Below, one piece after another: positions 6,581-37,202 of a stretch of DNA of 37,958 nucleotides. The stretch is from IMG/VR virus record IMGVR_UViG_3300000364_000204, positions 1 to 37,958 of that record; one strand, written 5' to 3'. The notes under the pieces were generated by a model. The model ran no database searches, had not been told where the DNA came from, and was given only the letters and a program-made list of their open reading frames with translations. The position numbers and the translations under genes are program-made. The stretch is from a virus. Positions within the stretch are counted from its first letter, which is position 1; each line of letters begins with the position of its first letter.

Positions 6581-6826
6581 CTAGGGTCTTTTGGACCTGT
6601 AGAGCTTTGTAACCTGGGTCCTGCTCATTTTTGGCAACAATTCAGCCAACATAGAACACTCGTCGTTGGTACAACTGCACTCCTTAACGTAGTTTGCACA
6701 CCAAATTACTGAATCTTTTCCAGTATTACCGTCGTCCAGCACGATATGCCAGCAACAACCTACTGCATGCTTTTTATAAAGCTCCTTAACTATAGGCAAT
6801 ACTTCAGGAACGGTTGGTTTTGTCAT
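6581..6826 (-). CDS. Conserved hypothetical protein (HIVLDDGN type)
   Basis: 81 residues on the minus strand, ATG at 6824-6826 with AGG seven bases upstream. It contains AVGCCWHIVLDDGNTGKDS, then WCANYVKECSCTNDECSMLA and the C-terminal KMSRTQVTKLYRS. The combination GCxxHIVLDDGN ... C..LA..L..MS.TQ is one I associate with a small conserved family found in phages and other mobile DNA, function unknown. Four cysteines could bind a metal. It is transcribed away from the late block, and its promoter should lie in 6827-7067. Codon use is visibly more AT-rich than in its neighbours. Confidence 0.72.
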   Translation of the reverse strand: MTKPTVPEVLPIVKELYKKHAVGCCWHIVLDDGNTGKDSVIWCANYVKECSCTNDECSMLAELLPKMSRTQVTKLYRSKRP

Positions 6827-6859
6827 AAGTGCCTGTATTTGTTGTGTTAGCGCTAGCGA

Positions 6860-6876
6860 TACTCTACTTTAGAGTA
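6860..6876. promoter_or_regulatory. Perfect inverted repeat, putative operator
   Basis: TACTCTA (6860-6866), CTT, TAGAGTA (6870-6876). It sits 34 bases upstream of the leftward gene's start and about 190 bases before the rightward gene at 7068, where a regulator could control either direction. Confidence 0.5.
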
Positions 6877-6890
6877 CACTTCGGGCCTAA

Positions 6891-6981
6891 CTACCCAGGT
6901 ACCGGAACACCGCATTTGTCCTTAGGGGCCTTAGTGGGCCCCGGACGATACCGTCTACTTACCGTAGGTACCATATTTTGA
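6891..6981 (+). repeat. Structured intergenic element, copy A
   Basis: Copy A of an element found again at 33184-33277. Shared parts in order: CTACC-N2-GGTACCG (GGTACCG 6898-6904), a GC-rich hairpin (GGGGCC 6925-6930 with GGCCCC 6937-6942), GGACGA then TACCG (6943-6953), and the 15-mer GGTACCATATTTTGA (6967-6981). The hairpin arms differ in sequence between copies but stay paired. It lies upstream of the late block and may be a terminator-promoter or RNA processing element. Confidence 0.7.
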
Positions 6982-7067
6982 GAAAAAAGTATAGTCGTTT
7001 ACAAAGTGAGAACTAAAGTTCACTAAGTTGAGTGGATTAGAATTCGAAAGCGGAGTACTTTGACCCC

Positions 7068-7757
7068 ATGGATAAAGATGACGGCAAGGTTTGGAAGGGT
7101 GGCTTTTACCGCGATCGAGGTGAGGGGCGTGGGCCGAGGGTGGCTCACTGCAAAATTGACGAGCTTCCTAATATAGATGCAGATAAGGCTGCAGAAAGAT
7201 TAGAGAATCTGAAAAAGAACCAGGATCCACTGAAAACCAGGGTGACAAAGCTCGCGTCAATGTCTATCCCGAGTGACGTTTTGGATGCAGGAGACCCAAG
7301 TTATGCTCGCTGCGTCCGTCAGGCGGCTGTCCTTAGGAAGCAGCTGGCAAGGGAGTTCTACATAGACTTCGGGTTTGTATCTGCTGCCGTCAGTATGCTT
7401 CTAAGCTCATCCGCACTTGCAACTGCGGCATCTCGCTTTTTGTATGAAACATCATCCGGATGCGAGGAGAGCAAAAAGGATGCAAAGGTAAAGATGGCCT
7501 CGAGTCTTTCGGACAGCGCAAGGCAAAATCTTCTGTCTGCCTACGAGCTCTGTGCCAAACAATCGGTAGTGAGGAAGCGCAACGCCACCAATACAGAGGC
7601 GGCGCCATGGCTGGTAAATTACAGTGGGGATGAAAAGAGGCCGAGGGGCAGACCAAGAAAGAACCCGCAGACAGAGGTCCAAAAAAGCCCCTATGGGGAG
7701 CCGAAAGGCCCTATTCTTTCCCTAACCGCTCCAGAGGACAGTAATGCCGGAACCTAA
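7068..7757 (+). CDS. AT-hook protein, possible small terminase subunit
   Basis: 229 residues from ATG 7068 with CGGAG about 14 bases upstream (weak). The N-terminal third is charged; residues 78-165 form a helical core (KQLAREFYIDFGFVSAAVSM, ALATAASRFLYE, SDSARQNLLSAYELCAKQS). Residues 191-199 are RPRGRPRKN, a textbook AT-hook that binds the minor groove of AT-rich DNA. The helical core followed by SARQNLLSAYELCAK resembles small terminase subunits of some short-tailed phages, and the gene starts the late block upstream of the large terminase. That role is inference; a nucleoid-type or regulatory DNA-binding protein is equally open. Overlaps the next gene by 14 bases. Confidence 0.72.
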   Translation: MDKDDGKVWKGGFYRDRGEGRGPRVAHCKIDELPNIDADKAAERLENLKKNQDPLKTRVTKLASMSIPSDVLDAGDPSYARCVRQAAVLRKQLAREFYIDFGFVSAAVSMLLSSSALATAASRFLYETSSGCEESKKDAKVKMASSLSDSARQNLLSAYELCAKQSVVRKRNATNTEAAPWLVNYSGDEKRPRGRPRKNPQTEVQKSPYGEPKGPILSLTAPEDSNAGT

Positions 7758-8529: not shown

Positions 8530-8844
8530 ATGGACTGCACGTCTATTTTCGTGTGTTCCGAGTGCGGGCAACCGGGGGCTTCATGTCCTAACTGGGACCA
8601 CACTGGATTCTGTCACCCACTATGTGGGGCAAAGAGGTCATTTCTTGAAGGCAAAGGCACCGACGGCATTACCGAAGAACTGCGTGGCACCTCAGGCCCA
8701 AAGGGAAGAGCAACCGGGACTCACCATGGCAGAAGCCATAAGTATCCTGGCCTTTTTGCAGGCTCGAGGCCGCTTGTGTGGTCAATGCGGGCACCGGTTG
8801 GTTACAGGACGCACTCAATACCATCAGCACTGCGACGACTGTAA
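8530..8844 (+). CDS. Small zinc-binding protein, reading frame uncertain at the 3' end
   Basis: Begins at ATG 8530 with GGAGG five bases upstream, one of the best ribosome sites in this part. The first ~40 residues look real: FVCSECGQPGASCPNWDHTG then CHPLCG carry two or three CxxC-type pairs for zinc. After about residue 45 the sequence turns Gly/His/Ser/Arg-rich, the look of a shadow frame, while another frame (gene at 8645) becomes protein-like. Either two genes overlap by 200 bases or a +1 frameshift joins them. As drawn the protein has 104 residues. Confidence 0.5.
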   Translation: MDCTSIFVCSECGQPGASCPNWDHTGFCHPLCGAKRSFLEGKGTDGITEELRGTSGPKGRATGTHHGRSHKYPGLFAGSRPLVWSMRAPVGYRTHSIPSALRRL

Positions 8845-8965
8845 GCTGGTGGACATCAACTACAGCCCAGTGAAGGAGGGATCTGAAATTGAAGGCCTTT
8901 TGTGCAGACGTCTCCAGTGTTGGGTCAACCACGTCCTTGCGTCTGAAGGCAAAGGGAACGGATAG
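8645..8965 (+). CDS. Zinc-ribbon protein
   Basis: 106 residues from TTG 8645 with AGAGG eight bases upstream; ATG 8726 is an alternative giving 79 residues. The sequence AEAISILAFLQARGRLCGQC then CGHRLVTG and HCDDCKLVD shows a CxxC-x15-CxxC zinc ribbon, followed by IEGLLCRRLQCWVNHVL. The GLLC segment recalls the end of endonuclease VII/HNH domains, but the His-Asn pair of that active site is absent, so I do not call it a nuclease. Overlaps both neighbours in other frames. Confidence 0.55.
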   Translation: MKAKAPTALPKNCVAPQAQREEQPGLTMAEAISILAFLQARGRLCGQCGHRLVTGRTQYHQHCDDCKLVDINYSPVKEGSEIEGLLCRRLQCWVNHVLASEGKGNG

Positions 8966-10108: not shown

Positions 10109-10627
10109 ATGGCGGACACCGAGCAGCATCTTTGGCCTACCGAATCGAACCTTCCACTGGACACTAGGGGCTATGCGATTGATCCTTCATCTCCTGTACA
10201 GGCTTCTGTTGACCATCCTTCACTCATTGGAGAAGTCCAGGCTCCTGGATCCAAGGCTAACTCGCCTTCGTCGGCATCAGCTGCGGGCATCGGTGGCACG
10301 GAAGTACGCCCTCAAGCTGCACAAGGGGCCTCTCAGGCGTCTTCGCGTCAACTAACGCCAGACGAGCTTATGGCATGGGCTAACGCTCAGGAACAACACT
10401 TCCTGAACCAGCGTCAGGACATGTCCACCGCGGTCGACCCGGCATTGCTCAGGACTGGTGGGGCCCAATACGTTCAGCAGCCAAAGCCGATTGGTTCTGA
10501 GGTGCCAGAGTGGCTCCACAGCTACATGCATCAACCGTCTGCGGTGGACGAGCTCCACGCTAAGCACTCGGCAGAGCGGTCCAACATGCTGGCCATGCGG
10601 GACGCCACCAACCGCAACGGACATTAG
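10109..10627 (+). CDS. Hypothetical Ser/Ala/Gln-rich protein
   Basis: 172 residues from ATG 10109; no clear SD. Low-complexity N-terminal half (Ser, Pro, Gln, Ala), then TPDELMAWANAQEQHFLNQR and a C-terminal HAKHSAERSNMLAMRDA helix. The peptide GIGGTEV is encoded here by a 20-base stretch (10286-10305) that is identical to 34594-34613 in an unrelated small gene. Composition suggests a disordered virion or assembly factor. It is the last gene before the tRNA pair and the terminase. Confidence 0.6.
   Translation: MADTEQHLWPTESNLPLDTRGYAIDPSSPVQASVDHPSLIGEVQAPGSKANSPSSASAAGIGGTEVRPQAAQGASQASSRQLTPDELMAWANAQEQHFLNQRQDMSTAVDPALLRTGGAQYVQQPKPIGSEVPEWLHSYMHQPSAVDELHAKHSAERSNMLAMRDATNRNGH
10286..10305. 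repeat. 20-bp exact repeat, copy 1 (copy 2 at 34594-34613)
   Basis: The 20 bases starting GGCATCGGTGG and ending CGGAAGT are identical at 34594-34613. Both copies are read in the same codon phase and encode GIGGTEV, in proteins otherwise unlike each other. Confidence 0.85.
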
Positions 10628-24375: not shown

Positions 24376-24957
24376 ATGCATGCCAACCTTGGTCGTTACC
24401 AGACCAACCTGAGCCGCTTCTACCACCCATCCAGTGCTCCGCAATCGAGCCCAGACGATGTTCCGGATGGTGCGGCCGGGTCTGGGTCCAGTCTGGCCAA
24501 AGCCGGTTATGGGTCAAACCAGGGCACTCCAGACCCATACAAGGGAGCCAGGGTGTTTGGTCGTAAAACCCACATTCCGCCTCCTAATGCAATCCAGGAA
24601 CTGGACGCCAGGCTGGCAAAGGGCCCAGACGGACCAAACCAGGACTACTCACCTATGTCCATTCCAAGTGACCGTAATGATTCGAAACTGGACGCAGTTC
24701 GTTATGGAGAGGCCTTGCCGGCTGCTCCGCCTGTACCTCGCGCAGCCCAGCAGGACATGAAGAACCTTTATGACCAGATTGGGCAAAACCAGAAGGCAGA
24801 AGAGGCTCGCTTTGGTGGGGTCTACAGCCCCCAAGGATTGCAAAAAGCAAGCAACAACGCCACTTTGGATGCAGCAGATAAACAACTTCTTAGAAACCAG
24901 CTCATTGGTGCACGTGGCATAGGTGGCCAGTACGCGGTTGGACCAGGGGTGTACTAG
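24376..24957 (+). CDS. Hypothetical Pro/Gly-rich virion-region protein
   Basis: 193 residues starting directly after the previous stop. Disordered Pro/Ser/Gly-rich N-terminal half, then short helices DMKNLYDQIGQNQKAEEARF and LDAADKQLLRNQLIGARG. It shares the low-complexity style of its neighbours, so it likely belongs to the ejection set. No family recognised. The stop overlaps the next GTG start (TAGTG). Confidence 0.65.
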   Translation: MHANLGRYQTNLSRFYHPSSAPQSSPDDVPDGAAGSGSSLAKAGYGSNQGTPDPYKGARVFGRKTHIPPPNAIQELDARLAKGPDGPNQDYSPMSIPSDRNDSKLDAVRYGEALPAAPPVPRAAQQDMKNLYDQIGQNQKAEEARFGGVYSPQGLQKASNNATLDAADKQLLRNQLIGARGIGGQYAVGPGVY

Positions 24958-32857: not shown

Positions 32858-33154
32858 ATGAGTGTAGCTTCTGTGGCTGACGCAGATTATGCGTCTGTAA
32901 TCAATACGATACGTAGACACTTGGCCAACGGCACTTCGCCATCCGCTGCTGAGCTTAGGCTTGCTGCTGCAGTGGTCAAAAAGGCCGTGGCTAACTACTC
33001 CACCATGGCCACCCAGTTTGCCATCCTCAATGCCTTTACTGGTGCTTCTGCAGCCCAGGACATCGTTGATGCTATTGCGGTTGCTGACGGTGTTCGTCCA
33101 ACAGTGCCAACTTATGCTGCATCTACGGGTGCAGACGGGGACGGGTACGAATAA
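32858..33154 (+). CDS. Hypothetical small Ala-rich helical protein
   Basis: 98 residues, ATG 32858 with AAAGGAAAG just upstream. Helical and Ala/Val-rich: YASVINTIRRHLANGTSPSA, LRLAAAVVKKAVANYSTMAT. It ends in GADGDGYE. No membrane segment and no known domain. It lies after the tailspike and before the second structured element; a tail accessory or chaperone role is possible but unshown. Confidence 0.68.
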   Translation: MSVASVADADYASVINTIRRHLANGTSPSAAELRLAAAVVKKAVANYSTMATQFAILNAFTGASAAQDIVDAIAVADGVRPTVPTYAASTGADGDGYE

Positions 33155-33183
33155 ACCGTAGTTATTACACTACGCAGCTCAGT

Positions 33184-33277
33184 CTACCTCGGTACCGACT
33201 CTTGTTCCTGGTTAAGGGAGACACTTACGGTCTCCCGGACAAGTACCGAATACAGGCTCTTCGGTACCATATTTTGA
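33184..33277 (+). repeat. Structured intergenic element, copy B
   Basis: Second copy of the element at 6891-6981. CTACC-N2-GGTACCG (GGTACCG 33191-33197), hairpin GGGAGAC 33216-33222 with GTCTCCC 33230-33236, GGACAAG-TACCG (33237-33248), a second stem GTACCGAA 33243-33250 with TTCGGTAC 33260-33267, and GGTACCATATTTTGA 33263-33277. Distance between the two GGTACC boxes is 72 bases (69 in copy A). It lies upstream of the lysis block. Confidence 0.72.
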
Positions 33278-33301
33278 CTTTTCTTTCAAACACACGGCTT
33301 C

Positions 33302-33310
33302 TGTTACAAT
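33302..33310 (+). promoter_or_regulatory. Extended -10 promoter element
   Basis: TGTTACAAT (33302-33310) fits the extended -10 form TGnTATAAT with one change. A CTTTCA at 33283-33288, 16 bases upstream, is a weak -35. The predicted start point, about 33317, falls three bases before the ATG at 33320, and no ribosome site precedes that ATG, so the transcript would be leaderless. Confidence 0.45.
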
Positions 33311-33319
33311 TGGTTTCAC

Positions 33320-34018
33320 ATGAATTTCAACAGCTTGGCTTCTAAACTTTTTTTCGGTGTTTTTATACTTACGAGTGCAGGTTGTGCCGTCCTTCCAGCA
33401 CGGAGCCCAACCATAGCCCTTCATGGGGACAGGCTTTTTACGGCAGAGGAGCGCACGTGCCTCAACGATTCCGCCAAGCAATGGTCGGAGCAAACCTCGG
33501 GACTTGTTGAAATCACTATAGATTACGACTACAACAGCTCTAAGCCGCTCGAAATGGCCCTTGCCCAAGCCGAGGACCATATCGTCCGATGGACGTCGAC
33601 CACGGAGCAGGTTGTGGAATACGAGGCCTATATGCGGGCCAAGGAGCACACCGATTCATGGACGCTCCTGGGCCAAGTAAACGGCAGTATTCATACGCTT
33701 CCTAGGTTCCCTCTCGAGATGCGCATGGTGCAGGACCGGCTCACTGACCCACATCGCTGCCGACTCACTGCTATCCACGAGATGGGCCACCTGCTTGGGC
33801 TTAAGCACTCGGGTGACAAGGCCGACATTATGTATCCGTCGGTAAACGAAAGTCGTCAGGAGTGCCTCAAGCAGACGGACTTGTTTCAATTCTGCATCTT
33901 CAACAATTGCGGAAATGTGCCAATGAAGCCGTGCGAGCTCAGCCCGACCGAGAAGCTGCTCGAATCACCAGAGGAAGACAATGCCGGAGCCTACGGATTC
34001 AACACCGACAACCTCTAG
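33320..34018 (+). CDS. Matrixin-like zinc metalloprotease, lipoprotein
   Basis: 232 residues. The N-terminus NFNSLASKLFFGVFILTSAG followed by Cys22 is a secretion signal with a lipobox-like end (TSAGC), so the protein should be membrane-anchored outside the cytoplasm. Residues 153-163 read HEMGHLLGLKH, the complete HExxHxxGxxH zinc site of metzincins, and DIMYPSV at 169-175 supplies the Met-turn. This is a matrixin/M10-type catalytic core. Such proteases are rare in phage lysis regions. It may cleave envelope or host proteins during lysis or entry; the target is unknown. It overlaps the next gene by 38 bases. Confidence 0.87.
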   Translation: MNFNSLASKLFFGVFILTSAGCAVLPARSPTIALHGDRLFTAEERTCLNDSAKQWSEQTSGLVEITIDYDYNSSKPLEMALAQAEDHIVRWTSTTEQVVEYEAYMRAKEHTDSWTLLGQVNGSIHTLPRFPLEMRMVQDRLTDPHRCRLTAIHEMGHLLGLKHSGDKADIMYPSVNESRQECLKQTDLFQFCIFNNCGNVPMKPCELSPTEKLLESPEEDNAGAYGFNTDNL

Positions 34019-34461: not shown

Positions 34462-34635
34462 ATGCCCTGGAAGTCACGAGCTCAGGCGGCGTTTATGCAT
34501 ATCCATCATCCGGATATTGCTAAGGAATTCGACGAAGCTACAACTAATGGTAAGAGGCTTCCATACAAGGTGAAGAAAAAGAAACGCCCTAAAGGCATCG
34601 GTGGCACGGAAGTGGGCGCGGAGAAGGGGGACTAG
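34462..34635 (+). CDS. Small basic phage protein (MPWKS type)
   Basis: 57 residues from ATG 34462 to TAG 34633-34635. It begins MPWKSRAQAAFMHIHHPDIA and continues KEFDEATTNGKRLPYKVKKK, a pattern I recognise from short, widespread phage proteins of unknown function (mPwKSkaQ...h......eF...T..g..LP..v). The tail carries GIGGTEV, encoded by the 20-base repeat also present at 10286-10305. No SD is obvious, but the start falls two bases after the previous stop. Basic character suggests nucleic-acid binding. Confidence 0.72.
   Translation: MPWKSRAQAAFMHIHHPDIAKEFDEATTNGKRLPYKVKKKKRPKGIGGTEVGAEKGD
34594..34613. repeat. 20-bp exact repeat, copy 2
   Basis: Identical to 10286-10305 and in the same codon phase; see that entry. 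Chance identity of 20 bases in a genome of this size is very unlikely. Confidence 0.85.
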
Positions 34636-34867: not shown

Positions 34868-35050
34868 ATGGCGACGAGGAAAGTCAAAAAAGCCCGCAAA
34901 AAGAAGCCTGATGACGCAGATGTCGCAGGTTTGATGTGCAGGCCAGACTACGAAGAGTATGCCAGGGAGCAGGAGAAGAGACTTAGGGAGCTCGAGGATG
35001 AGCTTTCAGGTGACTCCATGCGTAACCCTCCGGACAAGGACTACACTTGA
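34868..35050 (+). CDS. Hypothetical small charged protein
   Basis: 60 residues from ATG 34868 with AGGATGG upstream. Basic N-terminus (TRKVKKARKKKPDD) and an acidic helical middle (YEEYAREQEKRLRELEDELS) that should form a short coiled coil. No family recognised. ACTTG 34831-34835 and CAAGT 34845-34849 form a small dyad in the preceding gap. Overlaps the next start (TTGA). Confidence 0.62.
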   Translation: MATRKVKKARKKKPDDADVAGLMCRPDYEEYAREQEKRLRELEDELSGDSMRNPPDKDYT

Positions 35051-35376
35051 GCAGCCTTGGTCTTTTTCAGGAAGCTACAGAAGTAGAGCCTGAAAAGGGT
35101 GAGGCTCTTCCGCTTGAGCAAGCCTGCGACCAGTACAGGGAAGGCTCCTTTGCGACCACCGAGTACGTGTCCAAGCACTGGGGTCATAAGGTTCAGGAAA
35201 AGGCCAATGCCGAGACCTTCAGAATCACGGTAAGAGGCGAGTGGTCCTTCCTGGAGGAGCTTAGGCACGGGAAGGGTGGACCGGCGTATCACTGGTCTGG
35301 GCTGATGTACCTAACCGAGAACCAGCACGAGTTGACCGGAGTGATGGTAAAAGCATCGAGGGGATTAGCAAAATGA
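35047..35376 (+). CDS. Hypothetical protein
   Basis: 109 residues from TTG 35047, which overlaps the previous stop and has AAGGA seven bases upstream. Mixed alpha/beta composition with TTEYVSKHWGHKVQEKANAE, TFRITVRGEWSFLEELRHG and YLTENQHELTGVMVKASRG. No cysteine pairs or known motif. ATGA overlap with the next gene. Confidence 0.6.
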   Translation: MSSLGLFQEATEVEPEKGEALPLEQACDQYREGSFATTEYVSKHWGHKVQEKANAETFRITVRGEWSFLEELRHGKGGPAYHWSGLMYLTENQHELTGVMVKASRGLAK

Positions 35377-35780
35377 CAGTAGACAAGACAAGAATTGGAT
35401 TCCGTAGCTCAGGCCCATGGACTGACTATGACTCTAGGCTTGTGGAGACCTGGCTTCTGACCGGTACTGAGCGCCTTGAGGAGTGGTTGAAAGATCACAC
35501 TTCCGATAACGAGGCCATCTATTGGCCCAATCTTCCGGGCGATGTGAAGGAGAAGCTCTGGCCTGGCTCCACAACGTCCACACGACAGACTGGCGCGACC
35601 ATTACCGGGTCTATAGCAGCGATCAAGAAAGCCTGGGGGGCCGAGTTTATCGCAGAATGCCACAAGCCAAACCAGAGGTCAGTCAAAATTGGTTACAACT
35701 GCTGTAAGTGTAAAGAGTACAACGAGTATGCTGCGTCCAACCGATCGGACGGTACCTATGTGTGCTACTCCTGCCGCTGA
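35373..35780 (+). CDS. Hypothetical protein with C-terminal zinc ribbon
   Basis: 135 residues from ATG 35373. The N-terminal two-thirds are unknown (WTDYDSRLVETWLLTGTERL, IYWPNLPGDVKEKLWPG, TGSIAAIKKAWGAEFIAECH). The last 30 residues are a zinc ribbon, NCCKCKEYNEYAASNRSDGT then VCYSCR. The frame stays open after its TGA stop to 36020, which is odd (see separate entry). Confidence 0.68.
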   Translation: MTVDKTRIGFRSSGPWTDYDSRLVETWLLTGTERLEEWLKDHTSDNEAIYWPNLPGDVKEKLWPGSTTSTRQTGATITGSIAAIKKAWGAEFIAECHKPNQRSVKIGYNCCKCKEYNEYAASNRSDGTYVCYSCR

Positions 35781-35865
35781 CCTGAGAGACAGATTTATCG
35801 TTGCCGAGCTGGTCGTATTCAGCCTGTCGCTAACCTTCTGCGTGTACGTACTGAGCCATTGTTGA
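35758..35865 (+). CDS. Possible tiny single-span membrane protein
   Basis: 35 residues from ATG 35758 to TGA 35863-35865, overlapping the end of the previous gene. FIVAELVVFSLSLTFCVYVL is a convincing membrane helix after a short polar N-terminus. Located before the endolysin, it could be a second holin or antiholin. No good ribosome site. The same bases also belong to other open frames, so this is tentative. Confidence 0.33.
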   Translation: MCATPAADLRDRFIVAELVVFSLSLTFCVYVLSHC

Positions 35866-36020
35866 GCTGCAACTTCTGCGTCGATACCCGAACAGAGCTG
35901 TACGTCTATGTCCTTGGGAAGCTCGTGTGGAAGAGGTATCGAAACCAGGCCGTATCTGCCCTGTTTCAGGTCAGTCCATGTATGACATACTGGGCATCCG
36001 AGGATAGGCTCGAGCCATGA
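35781..36020 (+). other. Open frame continuing past a TGA, with a competing antisense frame
   Basis: After the TGA of the zinc-ribbon gene (35778-35780) the same frame stays open for 79 codons to TGA 36018-36020, which overlaps the endolysin ATG (ATGA). The only sensible starts within it are TTG 35859 and 35862, giving 52-53 residues beginning LSCNFCVDTRTELYVYVL. On the minus strand a 115-residue frame (36026 down to 35679) contains GCPVCHTWTDLKQGRYGLV and also reads like protein, but no ribosome site precedes it and all neighbours run rightward. I cannot choose between them. Confidence 0.35.
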
Positions 36021-36787
36021 ACCCATGGTCTGATGGTCCGGTCAAAGGACTACTCAACGGATTCGACCTCAGCTCGGTCCAGTGGAGCCCAGGTAGACCG
36101 CTCTTGGACTTCGGTAAGGCTTACGATGCTGGATTCAGGTTTGCCTACATCAAAGCGAGTCAGTACAGTTCAGGTAGAGACACTGCTTTCCACGAGCTGG
36201 CGAGTCAACTCCGAGACGCAGGCTTTGCAATCGGTGCGTATCACTTCTGCAGTCATGATTCTGACCCAGAACAGCAGATGGAGCACTTTTACGCAGCATC
36301 TAAGGGCCTTGGGTCTAATCCTGGTGAACTGCCTCCGATGCTTGATTGGGAATACTGCACCCCGTCTAAGTATCAGAATCACCCGCAGCATTGTGTGGAC
36401 TGGCTCGGAAGAGCTTTAGAAAAAGCCGATGACCTCTGGTATCCAAACCAGAGCCCAAGAGTTCCCTGCGTGTACACCTACCCGTACTACGCCAAGCAGC
36501 ACCAACCTGGTCTTGCTTTGCAGTCAACCTTTGGGACAGGTGTCCCGCTGTGTTTGGCGTCGTACACGCCCGGGACCGTACTGGCAAATGCGGAACAGAT
36601 TCCTTCACACCAGGTGCCGAAGCCGTGGCTCAGAGCGACGTTGTGCCAGCACAATGGTAACGATGGCCGAGTTCCTGGCATACCAGGGGCATGCGACATG
36701 CAGGTCGCTTTAATGTCTCAAGGTGAATGGGACGAATTTTTGGGCATAAAAAAACCTCCTGCGCTGGAGACGTTTGATGTTAAGTGA
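36017..36787 (+). CDS. GH25-family muramidase endolysin
   Basis: 256 residues. The GH25 (Chalaropsis-type lysozyme) layout is clear: GFDLSSVQW with Asp17 near the start, GFRFAYIKASQ, FAIGAYHFCSHDSDPEQQ, and the catalytic acidic pair Asp110/Glu112 in PPMLDWEYC. The enzyme cleaves the MurNAc-GlcNAc bond of peptidoglycan. There is no signal peptide, so release would need the holin. The C-terminal part (about 180-256) has no recognisable wall-binding repeat and may just complete the barrel. The next gene overlaps by 11 bases. Confidence 0.92.
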   Translation: MNPWSDGPVKGLLNGFDLSSVQWSPGRPLLDFGKAYDAGFRFAYIKASQYSSGRDTAFHELASQLRDAGFAIGAYHFCSHDSDPEQQMEHFYAASKGLGSNPGELPPMLDWEYCTPSKYQNHPQHCVDWLGRALEKADDLWYPNQSPRVPCVYTYPYYAKQHQPGLALQSTFGTGVPLCLASYTPGTVLANAEQIPSHQVPKPWLRATLCQHNGNDGRVPGIPGACDMQVALMSQGEWDEFLGIKKPPALETFDVK

Positions 36788-37202
36788 ATGCCAAAATTAT
36801 GACGGCGAAATTGGAAACCACGGATACGGTTTGACCAATATTGGTAATCGCAAAGTGCTGACCCATAGATTGGCATGGGCCCTACATAATGGAGCCGACC
36901 CGGCAGGCAAAGTTGTTCGTCACAAGTGTGACAATAGGTCTTGCGTGAATCCTGAGCATCTAGAGATAGGCACACAGGCCGACAACGTAAAAGACATGTT
37001 CGAACGAAAGCGGGCCCCAATAGGGTCACAAAGGTCATCTTCAAAACTGGACGAAAAGAAAGTATCGGAGATAAAGTCCTTATTGGCTGACGGTGGATTT
37101 ACCCAGAAGGAGATAGCCGATATGTATGGCGTTCACCGTTCATCAGTAATGCTTATAAAGCATGGCAAAAACTGGCCTCATGTGAAGGTTACTGATGAGT
37201 AA
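36777..37202 (+). CDS. HNH endonuclease with C-terminal helix-turn-helix
   Basis: 141 residues from ATG 36777 with GGAG seven bases upstream; a TTG at 36774 is less likely. The HNH core: HRLAWALHNGADPAGKVVRH, CDNRSCVNPEHLEIGTQADN, with His49, Cys51/Cys56 and Asn58-Pro-Glu-His61. This is the HNH_3 type of free-standing homing endonucleases. Residues about 95-137 (KVSEIKSLLADGGFTQKEIA then DMYGVHRSSVMLIKHGKNW) are a helix-turn-helix that likely selects the target. It overlaps the endolysin gene by 11 bases, a common insertion place for homing enzymes. Confidence 0.88.
   Translation: MLSECQNYDGEIGNHGYGLTNIGNRKVLTHRLAWALHNGADPAGKVVRHKCDNRSCVNPEHLEIGTQADNVKDMFERKRAPIGSQRSSSKLDEKKVSEIKSLLADGGFTQKEIADMYGVHRSSVMLIKHGKNWPHVKVTDE

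Follow-up and report, generated by a model that had tools for sequence, protein, structure and literature searches.

A duplicated intergenic element ahead of the late and lysis blocks of a tailed phage: a candidate late promoter module

The phage and its relatives

The stretch of DNA analysed here, called the window in the following (37,958 nucleotides), is the whole of the virus record IMGVR_UViG_3300000364_000204 and originates from a tailed phage. Its genes encode among others an Erf-type annealing protein, an exonuclease, an SSB, a terminase, a head-tail adaptor-like protein, a major head protein and an endolysin. The record shows no end repeat and may fall short of a complete genome. Its start (positions 1-100) contains tandem GGTACGGG(A/T)-type repeats, which possibly stem from an assembly end or from a repeat in coding sequence. 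Besides the 15-mer described below, and leaving the first 200 bases aside, only one exact repeat of at least 15 bp is present, the 20-bp direct repeat GGCATCGGTGGCACGGAAGT at 10286-10305 and 34594-34613.

The phage belongs to a family which is without isolate and has almost no annotated relative. In IMG/VR 17 related contigs could be identified via MCP alignments; their MCP identity to the window ranges from 40 to 77%, and the gene order is common to most of them. Single-sequence patterns of the terminase and of gene A, the first gene of the late block, retrieved no relatives from viral contigs. No prophage was found in 84,980 genomes and no relative in an MCP search of phage and plasmid records. 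The hits of a TerL search were limited to 'Virus Rctr16k' (38%) and one remote cyanophage.

The late block runs from gene A through a tRNA-Ser gene to the terminase, head and tail genes. Conservation of gene A extends through the family; the protein is helical by prediction, and the AT-hook-like C terminus is also seen in the closer relatives; no credible structural match was found for its predicted structure (pLDDT 67). Upstream of gene A the neighbouring gene (6581-6826, minus strand) appears to be leftward, as are the genes in front of gene A in G001 and G004-G007.

Two related copies of an intergenic element

The preliminary description had claimed a duplicated structured element, one copy of which lies before the late genes and the other one before the lysis genes. 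Reading of the sequence placed both copies where they had been reported (Table 1), each of them followed by a plus strand block, the late genes from 7068 and the lysis genes from 33320. Copy 1 comprises 91 nt and copy 2 comprises 94 nt. The order of the parts is also the one described, namely CTACC-N2-GGTACCG, a hairpin, GGAC, TACCG and GGTACCATATTTTGA, and the GGTACC boxes start 69 bp apart in copy 1 (6898 and 6967) and 72 bp apart in copy 2 (33191 and 33263). Order and spacing agree with that description; the sequence itself departs from it by an extra G in copy 2 (GGACAAGTACCG versus GGACGATACCG). The similarity reaches further upstream than was reported, as TACACT.CG precedes CTACC. From the end of the 15-mer it is 86 bp to the first start codon in copy 1 and 42 bp in copy 2, and only 29 bp separate copy 2 from the preceding stop codon.

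Table 1. Coordinates of the two element copies, their parts and the genes that follow them.
Feature	Position	Strand	Description and basis
Copy 1 of the element	6891..6981	+	Intergenic, before gene A (7068-7757); sequence, alignments to copy 2 and G001
5' box, copy 1	6891..6903	+	CTACC-N2-GGTACC with tandem TACC-N4-TACC; motif scan
Hairpin I, copy 1	6918..6946	+	GTCC / TTA bulge / GGGGCC loop GGCCCC / GGAC; fold, stem scan
3' box, copy 1	6960..6981	+	TACC-N5-TACC in ...TACCGTAGGTACCATATTTTGA; motif scan, 15-mer also syntenic in G001
15-mer, copy 1	6967-6981	+	GGTACCATATTTTGA
Gene A	7068..7757	+	Opens the late block; conserved protein, helical by prediction, C-terminal AT-hook-like RPRGRPRK
Copy 2 of the element	33184..33277	+	Between 32858-33154 and 33320-34018; sequence, alignment
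5' box, copy 2	33184..33196	+	CTACC-N2-GGTACC with tandem TACC-N4-TACC; motif scan
Hairpin I, copy 2	33201..33243	+	CTTGTTC / 8-nt bulge / GGGAGAC loop GTCTCCC / GGACAAG; fold, stem scan
Possible hairpin II, copy 2	33243..33267	+	GTACCGAA / TTCGGTAC, overlaps the 3' box; stem scan
3' box, copy 2	33263..33277	+	GGTACCATATTTTGA; sequence
First gene after copy 2	33320..34018	+	Matrixin-like metallopeptidase, Peptidase_M10 E 2.4e-9; lipoprotein-type N terminus (LTSAGC)

The window contains the 15-mer GGTACCATATTTTGA at two sites, and no further one was found at up to three mismatches. Taken alone it is weak evidence, with 0.44 matches expected per window at that tolerance. Local alignment of the whole elements scored 57, and 2000 dinucleotide shuffles gave a mean of 20.5 (sd 3.2) and a maximum of 41. 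The likeness of the two copies is not due to chance, and the duplicated intergenic control element is real. The pair was picked from all intergenic pairs, yet the result stands because the margin over the shuffles is large enough.

A second feature common to both copies is the tetranucleotide TACC. On the plus strand of the window TACC-N4-TACC is present at 6892 and 33185 only, once per copy, and TACC-N5-TACC at 6960 only. The two elements are the densest 91-nt TACC clusters of that strand (5 and 4 sites), and all of the sites have the same orientation. In the related phage G001 (IMGVR_UViG_3300047160_002096) the densest cluster is its own element; the other dense clusters which were looked at in this genome are located inside open frames of 332-772 codons. 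TACC was chosen after the window alignment had been seen, and G001 is the only independent test of it. The strongest conserved signal is one of primary sequence, consisting of the same-orientation TACC sites and the 15-mer, and judged by its layout the TACC arrangement looks more like an operator array than like a structure-only element.

The element in related phages

G001 carries an identical 15-mer at the syntenic copy 1 place, upstream of a gene A homologue with 43% identity, and like both window copies it has the box CTACC-N3-GTACC upstream of the 15-mer. Alignment of copy 1 with the G001 element scored 59 (shuffle maximum 40, n=1000), whereas copy 2 reached a score of only 31 with G001, which is marginal as 19 of 1000 shuffles attained it. 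The remoter G014 and G016 (MCP 66%) have GTACCATATTT at the corresponding site, where TGTACCATATTTCGCC is found about 75 bp before their first rightward gene. By our estimate a match of 11 bases would arise there by chance in a few cases per thousand, allowing for the genomes looked at. The remaining relatives do not carry the box. Since most relatives are without it, the element must turn over fast.

Among 41 and 103 otherwise chance-like stretches matched by degenerate DNA patterns, the only carriers of the box were G001 and phages of the G014/G016 type, including the near-identical contig L127; for the 103 stretches the listed loci were checked. A candidate second element in G001 (24630-24706, rightward) was discarded after reading by eye, being placed inside a leftward open frame. 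In two IMG/VR contigs of an unrelated phage, L120 and L147 (4.8 and 6.4 kb), a 14-bp stem (TAGTTAC.CTGGGGT / ACCCCAG..GTAACTA) and, behind it, GTACCATATTTAGGG precede an ORF. They encode no relative, and the similarity in layout is probably due to chance.

In G011 (L097-L099) the sequence TATGGTCA is present four times about 50-105 bp before gene A, with three of the repeats reading ACGTATGGTCA. They occupy the copy 1 place and may perhaps be another operator array that serves the same purpose. Repeats before gene A were considered as a trait of the whole family and dismissed, G011 being the only genome clearly above random.

Copy 2 and the rearranged lysis block

Most relatives have a homologue of the metallopeptidase gene behind copy 2 in their lysis region. 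The element was not found before this homologue in G001, G004, G005 and G007-G012. In G001, G004, G005, G007-G009, G011 and G012 the junction in front of it spans no more than about 10-50 bp as judged by eye; where the homologue of G010 starts is uncertain. The endolysin cassette (34868-37202) is encoded on the plus strand in the window and on the minus strand in G001, G004, G005, G007 and G008, and in part in other relatives. The inverted cassette keeps its transcriptional order. Because the lysis block headed by copy 2 is peculiar to this genome and the relatives are without the element, copy 2 is most simply explained as a gain.

Hairpins and the evidence for selected structure

Each copy contains a perfect stem of at least 6 bp, the 3' arm of which ends 25 bp (copy 1) or 27 bp (copy 2) before the 15-mer. 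With 19 perfect hairpins of at least 6 bp in the window, the probability that this matching placement is a coincidence is roughly 0.0025, as derived from the hairpin counts. In a check for two stem-loops, copy 2 formed two perfect hairpins, and of the two in copy 1 one was clear and the other weak. The second hairpin of copy 2 is followed by CATATTTTGACTTTTCTTTC; in an alternative fold of this copy the two GGTACC boxes pair with each other instead.

The preliminary description regarded the hairpin arms as entirely different and took their pairing to mark an RNA or cruciform structure under selection. The first statement is too strong, since both copies share GGG...CCC where the upper stem begins, and in both the GGAC behind the arms forms pairs with a GTCC or GTTCC further upstream. 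Compensated differences, in which pairing is kept, are confined to the upper 3-4 pairs of the stem. The second statement goes beyond these few pairs and the modest folding scores. The two copies have fold z-scores of -2.2 and -3.0, and the G001 element has one of -2.5; when flanks are added, the values of the copies weaken to -1.8 and -1.9. For the family as a whole, regions before gene A from ten genomes fold no better than 250 random regions (pooled p = 0.07). Only the copy 2 region stands out, with a best window z of -4.6 that is reached by 2.4% of random regions.

Conserved flanks are found in G001 only, where the hairpin pairs but sits at a different place, and MAFFT alignment of two or three element sequences leaves the hairpin arms out of register. 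No Rfam covariance model matched the window at its gathering score except for a tRNA elsewhere, and nothing credible was found by E-value. The hairpins are real, and there is modest evidence for a selected structure, which stops short of demonstration.

A late promoter/operator module and its alternatives

The preliminary description offered a paired terminator-promoter, an RNase III site or a phage-specific control RNA. Among these options an element containing a promoter fits best; a canonical terminator was not found at either copy. We favour the interpretation, for which we see about even chances, that each copy is a rightward late promoter/operator module with same-orientation activator sites. 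A regulator encoded or recruited by the phage would bind TACC half-sites, which are arranged as TACC-N4-TACC in the 5' box and as TACC in or near the 3' box. The conserved GGTACCATATTTTGA would mark the core promoter at which the host RNA polymerase starts, so that the hairpin between the boxes would lie upstream of the putative start. It could stop incoming upstream transcripts or keep the two boxes in register. Copy 1 would start the late block and copy 2, gained in this phage, the plus strand lysis block.

Several observations speak for a promoter. Both copies and the G001 element precede a plus strand block in the same orientation, and the gained copy 2 coincides with the endolysin cassette that is turned to the plus strand. 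The alignments of the copies with each other and of copy 1 with G001, which exceed their shuffles, together with the G001 15-mer, the G014/G016 match and the TACC clusters of the window and of G001, also speak for it. Against a promoter count that no sigma-70 -35/-10 hexamers at 16-18 nt spacing were found in 6700-7200 or 33000-33500, and that a search for sigma factors gave none over the cut-off and no regulator was found. PF00940 (single-subunit RNA polymerase) gave no match in a search without a working positive control. The marginal alignment of copy 2 with G001 and the lack of the box in most relatives also count against it, and binding sites alone leave the hairpins at matching positions unexplained.

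The main rival, which we consider unlikely, is an RNA element that acts in cis from the 5' end of the late transcripts. The promoter would be located further upstream and the stem-loops would modify RNA polymerase by antitermination or anti-pausing, in analogy to the putRNA of HK022. The putRNAs are about 70 nt in length, occur twice per genome and form two stem-loops (PMC9378689). Here, too, two related and possibly structured elements of roughly 70-90 nt are found near block starts, both with hairpin I, its 5' bulge and compensating upper pairs, and copy 2 with a second hairpin. However, the put sites lie downstream of early promoters and have two defined stem-loops, whereas the hairpin architecture of the element varies between copies and relatives, as its different place in G001 indicates, and transcription through it is putative. 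No promoter-like site was found upstream of the boxes, and the preceding stop codon lies only 29 bp before copy 2. Structure in the family is not above random and the element z-scores are only -2 to -3; what is conserved is an array of direct repeats that resembles DNA-binding sites more closely. That the same-orientation TACC array and the hairpin with covarying upper arms together form a new RNA- or cruciform-dependent switch of late and lysis genes appears quite unlikely to us.

A strong GC hairpin in both copies, which in copy 2 directly follows the tail genes and is succeeded by CATATTTTGACTTTTCTTTC after hairpin II, would also suit a terminator or RNase III site between blocks, where incoming transcripts are ended or cut and the boxes are incidental or a separate promoter. 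This is very unlikely in our view, as no intrinsic terminator (GC stem and T run) or other terminator-like site was found on the plus strand at either copy, and the TACC array and the invariant 15-mer would be left unexplained. There is also little to terminate at copy 1, because its upstream neighbour appears to be leftward. Least probable of all is a replication or packaging site, in which an initiator or terminase would bind to an iteron-like array next to a hairpin. Such a site would fit the non-coding location of the direct repeats and their hairpin as well as the G011 repeats at the same place; the copies are, however, 26 kb apart and one of them is absent in relatives, no clear GC-skew switch is seen at the element, and each copy directly precedes a gene block, both facing the same way.

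Relation to known control elements

A close model for the favoured promoter/operator module is the late promoters of the P2/P4 type, where several late operons each follow a copy of a short element bound by an activator (Ogr/Delta), the same mode of action as is proposed here (PMC3931495). The TGT-N12-ACA which defines P2-type late promoters is absent from both window regions and from the G001 region, and the element is therefore not a promoter of that type. In comparison to P2 it adds a hairpin and a 15-base core box. A check for Ogr-like activators gave a weak zinc-ribbon match for 8624-8965, which is below the curated cut-off. The CII protein of phage lambda activates transcription via a TTGC-N6-TTGC direct repeat. 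The likeness to CII-type sites consists in direct repeats of a tetranucleotide in the same orientation, but tetranucleotide and spacing differ (TACC with N4 and N5 here), TTGC-N6-TTGC is absent and no CII homologue was found.

The element has a new sequence and is ordinary in kind, belonging to the phage late-gene control elements. It provides a testable candidate late promoter motif for a phage family without isolate. The gain of a second copy of a late control element, in front of a lysis block that has been rearranged, would be a small case of transcription-unit rewiring in phages.
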